From an uncultured Alphaproteobacteria bacterium (GTDB lineage: Bacteria > Pseudomonadota > Alphaproteobacteria > HIMB59 > GCA-002718135): a stretch of 64,000 bases of DNA. The translations under genes and the position numbers were made by a program. Below the pieces are notes generated by a model. That model was not told where the DNA came from. It saw only the letters and a program-made list of their open reading frames with translations, and searched no databases. Shown here piece by piece: positions 32,819-35,607 of the stretch. Numbering within the stretch: the first letter of the stretch is position 1; each line of letters starts with the position of its first letter. The stretch is from NCBI GenBank assembly GCA_902607435.1, contig CACLJX010000007.1:1-64000 (forward strand), read 5' to 3'.

Positions 32819-33811
32819 ATGAAATTATTTGATCAATTTAATAGAAAGATAAATTACTTGAGAGTGTCAGTTACCGATAGGTGTGATTTAAGATGTCTAT
32901 ATTGCATGAAAGAAAAAATGACTTTTCTTTCAAAAAAAGAAATTTTAACTTTAGAAGAAATTGAAAGATTATGTGATAATTTTATTGATCTAGGAGTTAA
33001 AAAAATTAGGCTTACCGGTGGCGAGCCGTTAGTCAGAAAGGATATTATTAAATTAATAAATAAATTAAATTTAAAATTAGGTAACACAAATCTAAAAGAA
33101 ATAACTCTAACTACAAATGGTTCACTACTTTCAAATTTTGCAAAACAATTAAAAGACAATGGCATTAATCGTATTAATGTATCCTTAGATACAATAATTG
33201 AAAAAAAATTTAAAAAAATAACAAGATTTGGAAATTTAAAAAAAATATTAAATGGAATTGATGAAGCTCAAAAAAATAATATCATAGTCAAAATCAATAC
33301 AGTCGCCATTAAAAATTTTAATGAAGATGAATTTATTAATTTAATTGAATGGTCCAACAAAAGAAATATAGACATTACTTTTATTGAAGTAATGCCTATG
33401 GATGAAACTGGTTTAGATAGACATCTTCAATTTGTGCCATTAGACAAAGTTTTTGAAAAACTAAATAAACAGTTTGATTTTTATAAAATAAATAAAAATA
33501 CAGGCGGACCTTCAGTTTATTATAATAGTAAAAATCTAGATAATAACATAGGTTTTATAACCCCTCTAACTAATAATTTTTGTGATAATTGTAATAGAGT
33601 TCGTATAACTAGTACTGGTAAATTATTTATGTGTCTTGGACAAAATGATTATGTTGATTTTAAAGACTTATTAAGAAAAGACTATAGTGATGAAACCATA
33701 AAAGAAAAAATATTATTTGCACTAAATATTAAACCAAAAAAACATGATTTTATAATTGATAAAAATACAAAACCTTACATGAAAAGACATATGAATGTTA
33801 CAGGGGGTTAA
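32819..33811 (+). CDS. moaA: GTP 3',8-cyclase (molybdenum cofactor biosynthesis)
   Basis: Radical-SAM enzyme for the first step of molybdopterin synthesis. The N-terminal cluster cysteines are Cys22, Cys26 and Cys29 in DRCDLRCLYCM. The C-terminal cluster is in FCDNCNRVRITSTGKLFMC. The protein ends in Gly-Gly (NVTGG), the conserved catalytic tail. At 330 residues it is complete. The stop shares a base with the nadK ATG. A 177-bp AT-rich gap with no recognised element lies upstream. Confidence 0.95.
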   Translation: MKLFDQFNRKINYLRVSVTDRCDLRCLYCMKEKMTFLSKKEILTLEEIERLCDNFIDLGVKKIRLTGGEPLVRKDIIKLINKLNLKLGNTNLKEITLTTNGSLLSNFAKQLKDNGINRINVSLDTIIEKKFKKITRFGNLKKILNGIDEAQKNNIIVKINTVAIKNFNEDEFINLIEWSNKRNIDITFIEVMPMDETGLDRHLQFVPLDKVFEKLNKQFDFYKINKNTGGPSVYYNSKNLDNNIGFITPLTNNFCDNCNRVRITSTGKLFMCLGQNDYVDFKDLLRKDYSDETIKEKILFALNIKPKKHDFIIDKNTKPYMKRHMNVTGG

Positions 33812-34569
33812 TGAAGTTTTATTTTACATCATCAAACTCTAGCGAAGCTTTAGTAACTAAAAAAAAATATCAAGACAAGTATGGACAAAATAATGTTGAA
33901 AACGCAGATATTATTGTACCAATTGGGGGAGATGGATTTCTTTTAAAAACTCTTCATGATTATAAGCAATTTAATAAATCATTTTACGGAATTAATTACG
34001 GCTCAATTGGCTTTTTAATGAATAATGATAGTGAAATTAATTTAGAAAAAATAATAAATAATTCTCAAAAAATCAAACTTAAGCCTCTAAATATGATAGT
34101 AAATAACGATAAGGGTGAAAAATTTGAATCAATTGCCTTTAATGAAGTTTCATTAATGAGACAGACTCATCAAGCTGCTAAAATTAAAATAGAGATTAAT
34201 GATATTGAAAGAATGAAAGAATTGATTTGTGATGGAATACTAGTTTCCACTGCTGCAGGAAGTACTGCTTATAATTCTTCAGCATACGGCAGCATAATAC
34301 CTTTAGAATCAAAATTATTGGCCTTAACGCCTATTAGTGCTTTTAGACCACGAAGATGGAGGGGTGCTCTTCTTTCTGAGAAAACAAAAATTAAATTTTT
34401 TGTTCAAGATAGTAACGAAAGATCTGTAAGCGTCACAGCTGATCATAATGAATTTCGTAATATAAAAGAAGTACAAATAACTTCTGCTAATAACTTGTCC
34501 TTTGATCTTTTGTTTGATAGCAACCATTCTATGGAAGAAAGAATCTTAAAGGAACAATTTATTTCTTAA
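33811..34569 (+). CDS. nadK: NAD kinase
   Basis: Makes NADP from NAD. The GGDG motif is at 39-42 (VPIGGDGFLLKTL). It is followed by GINYGSIGFLMN, the NAD-binding STAAGSTAYNSSAYGSIIP and the FRPRRWRGALL region. At 252 residues it has the short alphaproteobacterial length. It is coupled to moaA by a 1-nt overlap. Its stop is 1 bp from the 3' end of the convergent tRNA-Leu gene. Confidence 0.93.
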   Translation: MKFYFTSSNSSEALVTKKKYQDKYGQNNVENADIIVPIGGDGFLLKTLHDYKQFNKSFYGINYGSIGFLMNNDSEINLEKIINNSQKIKLKPLNMIVNNDKGEKFESIAFNEVSLMRQTHQAAKIKIEINDIERMKELICDGILVSTAAGSTAYNSSAYGSIIPLESKLLALTPISAFRPRRWRGALLSEKTKIKFFVQDSNERSVSVTADHNEFRNIKEVQITSANNLSFDLLFDSNHSMEERILKEQFIS

Positions 34570-34570
34570 T

Positions 34571-34845
34571 TGGTAGCCTCGGCCGGACTCGAACCGGCAC
34601 TCCCAAATGGGCAAGGATTTTCTTACTACTATAGTTTTCACTACCAGCATACGCTGTTTGTAGTCTGGACTATACCTTCATCTCAAAGAGATGTGAGCCG
34701 TCTAGTCTCTACACCTTCCTATCTCTAGGCTTGGCTCGGTATTAGCAGTTAAGCCTTCACCGAATTTGACTCATTCTACATTAGGTTTCACAACCTAAGC
34801 ACTCAAAAACTAAGTCCTTTGTGTCTACCATTCCACCACGAGGCC
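34571..34845 (-). tRNA. tRNA-Leu(UAA), interrupted by a group I intron
   Basis: Exon 1 is 34845-34812 (34 nt) and exon 2 is 34621-34571 (51 nt, ending in an encoded CCA). Spliced, they form an 85-nt class II tRNA: acceptor GGCCTCG with CGAGGCT (G1-U72 wobble), D arm with GTGG/ACAC, anticodon stem AAGGA with TCCTT, loop CTTAAAA reading anticodon UAA, a long variable arm, and a T arm GCCGG-TTCGAGT-CCGGC. The intron falls between U34 and A35. The gene lies 15 bp downstream of the cinA-like gene on the same strand and may be co-transcribed with it. Confidence 0.93.
34622..34811 (-). ncRNA. Group I (IC3-like) self-splicing intron in tRNA-Leu(UAA)
   Basis: 190 nt, no open reading frame, ending in the obligatory G (34622). 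Counting from the intron 5' end: P1 pairs exon ACUU with GAGU (8-11), giving the required U-G wobble at the 5' splice site; P2 14-20/25-31 with a GUGA loop; P3 39-42/115-118; P4 49-53/72-76; P6 83-86/91-94 with a GAGA loop; P7 105-109/140-144; P8 119-124/128-133; P9 hairpins at 156-167 and 169-180 (GAAA loop). P3, P7 and P8 interleave in group I order. Conserved blocks ACCGAGCCAAGCC, GTGTAGAGACTAGACGG and AAGGTATAGTCC match the Q, R and S elements of cyanobacterial and plastid tRNA-Leu introns. Confidence 0.92.
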
Positions 34846-34860
34846 ACTGAAACTTATCTA

Positions 34861-35607
34861 TCAGACTATAGAACTTTTTCCACCTAATAATGAAATCATA
34901 TTAATTATTTCATTAATAATTTCTTTTAAACTTTCCCTCTCCCATGAAGACACAACGATGTTAACTCCGCTAGTTTTTTTTATATAATCAAAATAGGGAT
35001 AACTTCCTATGAAGCAATCAACATAATTATTTTGAATTTTCGATAATGGAGAAGCAATAGTACTTTCATATAAATTTGTTTCTATTGTGCAAATTTTTTT
35101 AGGCTTACCTTTTTGAAGTTTCATTAATATAGATTTAAACATTTTTTTCATAATATCTGGTACACCTGGTAAAACATGAACATTCTTAATCTTAAAGCCT
35201 GGTGCTACTGTTAAAGGATTGTAAATCAATTCAGCTTTTTCTGGTAACATTGCCATTTTCTGCCTGCTTTTATTAAATTCTCCTTTTGGATAATATTCCT
35301 TAAGAACTCTAAAAGCTTCCGGATGAATACAGTATTTTACGTTAAAGGCTTTGGCAATACTCTCTGAAGTTAAATCATCATGTGTAGGTCCTATGCCACC
35401 TGTTGTAAAAACATAAGTGTAAGCTTTATGAAATTCAAGAACAGTATTTTTAATAATATCAATATTATCTTGTATTACTCTTATTTCATTTAACTTAATA
35501 CCTGCTTTTATTAGTTCCTGAGCAATAAAATTAGAATTTATGTCTTGTGTTCTCCCAGAAAGAATTTCATCACCTATAATTATGATTCCTGCTGTAAGTT
35601 TACTCAT
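34861..35607 (-). CDS. CinA-type molybdopterin-binding-domain protein
   Basis: 248 residues of the MoCF/CinA N-terminal type: GIIIIGDEILSGRTQDINSN and VFTTGGIGPTHDDLTSESIA are diagnostic. The C-terminal nicotinamide-nucleotide deamidase domain of full CinA (about 400 residues) is absent; this stand-alone form is common in alphaproteobacteria. The role is uncertain; a nucleotide-salvage pyrophosphatase activity has been shown for the domain in some CinA proteins. It lies upstream of tRNA-Leu on the same strand and diverges from map. Confidence 0.85.
   Translation of the reverse strand: MSKLTAGIIIIGDEILSGRTQDINSNFIAQELIKAGIKLNEIRVIQDNIDIIKNTVLEFHKAYTYVFTTGGIGPTHDDLTSESIAKAFNVKYCIHPEAFRVLKEYYPKGEFNKSRQKMAMLPEKAELIYNPLTVAPGFKIKNVHVLPGVPDIMKKMFKSILMKLQKGKPKKICTIETNLYESTIASPLSKIQNNYVDCFIGSYPYFDYIKKTSGVNIVVSSWERESLKEIINEIINMISLLGGKSSIV

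Follow-up and report, generated by a model that had tools for sequence, protein, structure and literature searches.

The window, i.e. the whole 64,000-nucleotide stretch of DNA that was analysed, carries between a cinA-like and a nadK-like gene a tRNA-Leu(UAA) gene that is split by a group I intron (Table 1). When introns are allowed, ARAGORN places the gene at c[34571,34845] and an intron of 190 nt behind position 34, i.e. between U34 and A35, and the spliced 34571-34845 (-) sequence folds as a normal tRNA-Leu(UAA). A default ARAGORN run on the window did not call the split gene, because introns are off by default. The intron, which we take to be of the tRNA type often classed as IC3, has no ORF, and its last base is a G. 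It matches RF00028 at 34650-34822 (-) with 61.3 bits (E=3.8e-15) over the full model (1-253), above the gathering score of 50. An Rfam scan of the whole window at the gathering score returned no RF00028 match, probably an effect of the speed filter; a 26-bit RF00028 match elsewhere in the assembly (L001 1501-1704, G000:C2:109924) is probably due to chance and was not reproduced by cmscan. The 5' exon is identical to that of intronless orthologues and the 3' exon mostly shares 96-100% identity with them. A second, intronless tRNA-Leu(UAA), which the earlier note had suggested looking for, was not found in the window's assembly (G000; 1.5 Mb, 37 contigs, 84% complete), where the split gene is the only one of its kind detected. 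Genome size and gene content suggest that this host is a streamlined alphaproteobacterium, perhaps similar to HIMB59. To yield what is apparently the cell's only tRNA-Leu(UAA), the intron would have to leave the pre-tRNA by splicing.

Table 1. Features of the split tRNA-Leu(UAA) locus in the window
Feature	Position	Strand	Remarks
tRNA-Leu(UAA) 5' exon	34812..34845	-	ends ...AAGGACUU (C32 U33 U34); ARAGORN with introns
Group I intron, 190 nt	34622..34811	-	RF00028, ARAGORN, covariation
tRNA-Leu(UAA) 3' exon	34571..34621	-	begins AAAAUCC; ARAGORN
Catalytic core between the two P3 strands (P3, P4, P5, P6, first P7 strand)	34695..34772	-	
Conserved core block GAGCCAAGCC..AAGGTGTAGAGACT	34704-34737	-	inside the core 34695..34772
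P7, guanosine-binding helix	34668..34707	-	GACUA 34703-34707, UAGUC 34668-34672
7-bp anticodon-loop sequence CTT^AAAA	34618..34814	-	split by the intron: 34812-34814 and 34618-34621
nadK-like flanking gene, conserved locus marker	33811..34569	+	synteny with family genomes
cinA-like (MoCF_biosynth) flanking gene, conserved locus marker	34861..35607	-	Pfam of the orthologue in the relative G015

The intron core is backed by strong covariation. Helices P1 to P9, as drawn for the window sequence, were scored in 31 tRNA-Leu introns: 94.9% of the cells are paired, and double changes number 271 as against 82 in shuffled data, with none of 500 shuffles reaching as high a value. Sliding the helices makes pairing collapse to 25-45%. 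The pseudoknotted helices P3 and P7 are 100% paired in 31/31 sequences, the last P7 pair covaries between AU and UA, the U-G pair at the 5' splice site is found in all 31 introns and the terminal G is invariant. The earlier note had read the sequence as a group I intron between U34 and A35 of tRNA-Leu(UAA), with helices P1, P2, P3, P4, P6, P7, P8 and P9, a U-G pair at the P1 splice site and a final G, and had named a covariance search as a check; the ARAGORN, RF00028 and covariation results bear out this reading.

The same note took the intron to be out of place in an alphaproteobacterial tRNA-Leu and very compact at 190 nt. Neither view can be maintained: the intron family occurs in 27/385 sampled genomes of the window's class (including Phenylobacterium, Caulobacter, Brevundimonas, Reyranella and Hoeflea), with tRNA-Leu(UAA) as its host gene in about 14 of these, and tRNA-Leu introns of the related group measure about 185 to 260 nt. 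The exact intron-core pattern was found, among the matches listed, in more than 117 GTDB genome stretches and more than 120 IMG/VR contig stretches. According to ARAGORN many of these matches are tRNA-Leu(UAA) genes of Alphaproteobacteria and others are labelled tRNA-Arg(CCU), Phe, Thr or Ser, some of these labels being mis-spliced Leu. Taken alone, the window intron is thus one more member of a widespread family and not a rarity. The open literature searched holds no report of the tRNA-Leu introns of Caulobacter.

At the orthologous locus, the order cinA-like - tRNA-Leu - (glyoxalase) - nadK is kept in about 30 family genomes, nearly all of which have contiguous exons. The only intron carriers among 111 family genomes are the window's own genome and three relatives (G015, G067 and G078), and these are 4 of the 162 genomes of the order. 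Given so few carriers and the intronless orthologues, the intron is therefore most simply explained as a gain in the window's lineage, presumably by horizontal transfer. Of the two origins raised in the earlier note, transfer into the tRNA site is thus the one that is upheld, and a wider ancestral distribution in the lineage finds no support.

The affinities of the intron point towards phages. A tree built from intron bases only places it in a set of 29 rows, 21 of them viral (98% SH-aLRT), which stands apart from most proteobacterial tRNA-Leu introns. Among the sequences compared, its nearest relatives by this tree and by identity are phage tRNA-Leu(UAA) introns (L097, 81%; L065, L110, L083 and L134), and the introns of the G015 type fall within the same set and are not clearly sister to it. 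A shared AT-rich composition may pull the introns of this set together. A clade uniting the window with G015, G067 and G078 (94%) appeared in a first tree that included exon bases; it is absent from the intron-only tree and was discarded. Many phage contigs with the intron are rich in tRNA genes (more than 30 tRNAs in one of them), and the phage exons differ from the host exons of the window tRNA. Among the viral contigs, six (L110, L143, L135, L087, L076 and L084) show phage tRNA arrays with a group I intron in tRNA-Leu(UAA), and one (L115 13072-13723) has a pair of intron-bearing tRNAs, called by ARAGORN as Arg UCU and Leu UAA, at a distance of about 600 bp. The family is also seen in phage contigs with no detectable tRNA (L060, L123, L142, L155, L167, L095, L102 and L137), where the introns perhaps lie inside protein genes.

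The three relatives that share the intron show the locus in other states. In G015, the tRNA is split in the anticodon loop: its 5' half ends with GGACTTAAAA and is followed by foreign DNA, which consists of a spacer, a complete intron-bearing tRNA-Leu and two cargo genes (one of them trypsin-like), up to TTCTTAAAATCC with the 3' half. G067 and G078 still show the 5' half, followed by the spacer and then the intron-bearing tRNA; the cargo and the second 3' half are missing, as expected if two identical 3' halves had recombined. No tyrosine integrase was found among the ORFs of the G015 island, and an exact search of IMG/VR with the sequence of the island's left end returned no match. In the window's genome, a search for an island scar, a displaced tRNA half or an integrase returned none. 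A series leading from an intronless gene to an island, a collapsed island and finally a clean intron is plausible, and the window would stand at its end. The same tRNA-Leu locus of another relative (L033 1-1599, G018:C7) shows a decayed tRNA copy beside cinA, a 1.5-kb stretch with one gene and, truncated where the contig ends, an intronless tRNA, and probably represents another island type at this tRNA-Leu hotspot.

A search near intron loci revealed displaced tRNA halves beside several intron-core matches in other bacteria. In 7/7 loci (two Phenylobacterium, a Caulobacterales bacterium, Bradyrhizobium lablabi, Sphingobium cupriresistens, an unclassified proteobacterium and an acidobacterium), the intron-bearing tRNA-Leu(UAA) is directly preceded by the end of a homologous tyrosine integrase, which in turn has upstream of it a displaced tRNA-Leu(UAA) 5' half ending with GACTTAAAA. 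The integrase is called as PF00589 in L179 and L278 and as phrog_1 in four islands. The island of G135 measures 49.5 kb, its second boundary lying 47.7 kb further on; both boundaries are also seen in G236 (20.4 kb) and in the single-contig genome G146 (27.6 kb). In these three genomes and in G015, the island is flanked by a tRNA gene and a displaced fragment, an arrangement absent from the window itself, and joining the flanks at CTTAAAA recreates an intronless tRNA-Leu(UAA) (ARAGORN). In G135, the displaced halves fit each other (GCAGA-CTTAAAA-TCTGC) and the carried tRNA has a different stem (ACGGA/TCCGT). We had considered an island that ends at the intron and uses the host 3' half; the GCAGA/TCTGC pairing of the displaced halves, unlike the carried tRNA, led us to reject it. 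Nor does an attP fragment restore the split gene at the junction: both halves are displaced and a separate full gene is supplied. The crossover core is the 7-bp anticodon loop CTTAAAA, which the integrase meets uncut in these relatives, and the intron of the replacement tRNA cuts exactly this sequence.

The cargo of the G236 island (L333/L334) includes a type I restriction-modification system, KwaB, AbiEii and a MobA-type relaxase, and that of the G146 island (L335/L336) PDC-S46, a SIR2 protein and a MobA-type relaxase. From these genes we infer that both are mobilizable defence islands. Displaced 5' halves with no integrase of that family nearby were found at three further loci (L246, L255 and L272). 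The first, from Thiobacillus (L246 3299-3748), has a tRNA-Thr(UGU) with an intron of the same kind and, 156 bp upstream, a displaced 5' half ending at the anticodon loop CTTGTAA; the island pattern may extend beyond tRNA-Leu. We found no report of bacterial islands with intron-bearing tRNAs in the open literature searched, and as far as this search shows, islands with intron-bearing replacement tRNAs have not been described before in bacteria.

The first loci had been found via the intron, a ASCERTAINMENT trap that was countered by a search with the integrase alone in 385 genomes of the class and 299 genomes of the order of G135. All 18 complete tRNA-Leu(UAA) genes found beside the integrase carry the intron, and a displaced 5' half accompanies 15 of them; in the class sample as a whole, about 14 of 385 genomes have the intron in tRNA-Leu(UAA). 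Being related, the 18 loci do not count as 18 independent events. Integrase and intron co-occur in 6 genomes of the class (p=8e-5, with kinship ignored in a set of related genomes). About 10 of the 14 intron-bearing tRNA-Leu(UAA) genes of the class sample have no adjacent island.

Related integrases that target tRNA-Leu(CAA) offer a comparison. At 7/7 such loci (L351, L364, L365, L366, L400, L402 and L408), a displaced 5' half and an integrase accompany a complete tRNA-Leu(CAA) that is intronless; a replacement tRNA therefore does not need an intron. By established rules, group I introns of this kind have a U at -1. The CAA loop has C34 at this position and could therefore hardly host the intron. 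The idea that CAA replacements evade the integrase by base changes in the loop fails as a rule, since in two of the seven (L364 and L408) the 7-bp loop is unchanged from that of the target. Other related integrases adjoin an intact tRNA-Met. Among the members of this integrase family that target Leu, replacement rather than restoration seems to be the rule.

We propose that the tyrosine integrase would recombine the CTTAAAA of attP with the same sequence in the anticodon loop of a tRNA-Leu(UAA) that has no intron, that this integration would destroy the host gene and that the island would make good the loss with a complete tRNA-Leu(UAA) carrying an intron at the same spot. Masking is the function of the intron that we find most attractive. 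If the integrase needs the uncut CTTAAAA, a gene split into CTT and AAAA at the DNA level could be used neither by the same nor by a rival integrase, and splicing would keep the tRNA working. Such concealment of the replacement tRNA from integrases by its intron is plausible but unproven. It is tempting to go further and to suppose that islands destroy the host tRNA-Leu(UAA), replace it with an intron-masked copy, shut out rivals and by repeated use seed intron-bearing tRNAs like that of the window; we put this forward tentatively, as a proposal with somewhat less than an even chance of being right.

The islands may instead have captured an intron-bearing tRNA, the intron being a neutral parasite that rides along, and we give this reading close to an even chance. 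The CAA-targeting relatives, which work without an intron, speak for it, as does the fact that the integrases form one family. It accounts less readily for three observations: (i), the intron is kept in every one of the 18 UAA cassettes, (ii), island-borne introns are scattered over the intron tree and do not form one clade (9 changes vs 8.7 expected at random) and, (iii), the intron cuts exactly at the crossover core. On present evidence, neutral hitch-hiking and masking are about equally likely.

Later recombination between the duplicated tRNA halves could remove the island, so that an intron-bearing tRNA stays behind. The island or its remnants at the orthologous locus would be represented by G015, G067 and G078, and the clean end state by the window. 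We consider this account as a whole, i.e. a horizontally gained intron of the phage-dominated set, islands as its carriers and deletion to the clean state, to be probable. For the window copy itself, the island route is a conjecture drawn from its relatives, and a phage tRNA could have served as well as a direct source. The intron would then have come from a phage tRNA-Leu(UAA) by homologous recombination or reverse splicing, the islands having no part in the window's genome. This is a serious possibility, if a minority one: the nearest introns are those of phages (the five named above, with L097 the closest), the window exons are host-like and the genome bears no island trace. Against it, island forms with related introns occupy the very same locus in three relatives, and the differences between phage and host exons make a long conversion tract unlikely.

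Vertical descent from an intron present early in the order, followed by its loss from the majority of relatives, is very unlikely: two genera of the family do have the intron at the same site, but carriers are confined to four of the 162 genomes, the others among them are surrounded by island remnants and they do not come together in the intron-only tree. Transfer from cyanobacteria or plastids, for which the insertion site (the same by established knowledge) may be cited, is the least probable origin, as the close relatives are found in phages and proteobacteria, in trees that took in no cyanobacterial sequences and so give no formal rejection.

The cyanobacterial and plastid tRNA-Leu(UAA) intron, reportedly described by Paquin et al. 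in 1997 and by others, is the obvious point of comparison. Both systems share the tRNA, the U34/A35 site, the intron class and the U-G pair at the splice site. They differ in that the nearest relatives found here are phage and proteobacterial (cyanobacterial sequences standing outside the trees) and in that the intron is sporadic and island-linked rather than stably inherited.

The closest match in anatomy is archaeal. At the tRNA-Thr(GGU) locus of Caldiarchaeum, Sugahara et al. 2012 (PMC3293823) described a displaced 5' fragment, a recombinase element and a complete tRNA with an extra intron, and proposed that the extra intron could protect the integrated element against later invasions. Anatomy and proposed advantage are the same as here; the Caldiarchaeum case is an archaeal intron at 24/25 known from one locus in one archaeon (PMC3293823), whereas we describe group I introns at 34/35 from many genomes, together with complete islands that retain both halves and a defined 7-bp core. 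The protective logic of masking is also that of the hypothesis of Randau and Soll, as cited in PMC4390854, that disrupted tRNA genes protect against the integration of mobile elements; as presented there, it concerns archaeal host genes, whereas in our case the intron-bearing gene arrives on the mobile element itself. The islands supply many cases in culturable bacteria of an element that delivers an intron-bearing tRNA at its own integration site, and thereby make the old proposal that tRNA introns guard against integration directly testable.

The group I introns of the tmRNA T-loop are clustered in a gene that islands also use (PMC11915505). They reside in another RNA, and no link between intron and island was seen in that source; the islands reported here could give introns that lack homing endonucleases a route of spread. 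With Islander-type islands, which integrate in tRNA genes and have an anticodon-loop subsite (PMC4383910), they share the tyrosine integrase, the anticodon-loop crossover and the tRNA fragments that bound the island. In the Islander type, the attP fragment restores the split gene (PMC4383910), whereas here both host halves are cast aside in favour of the tRNA that the island brings, which adds replacement, not restoration, to the ways in which an essential tRNA gene can be occupied.
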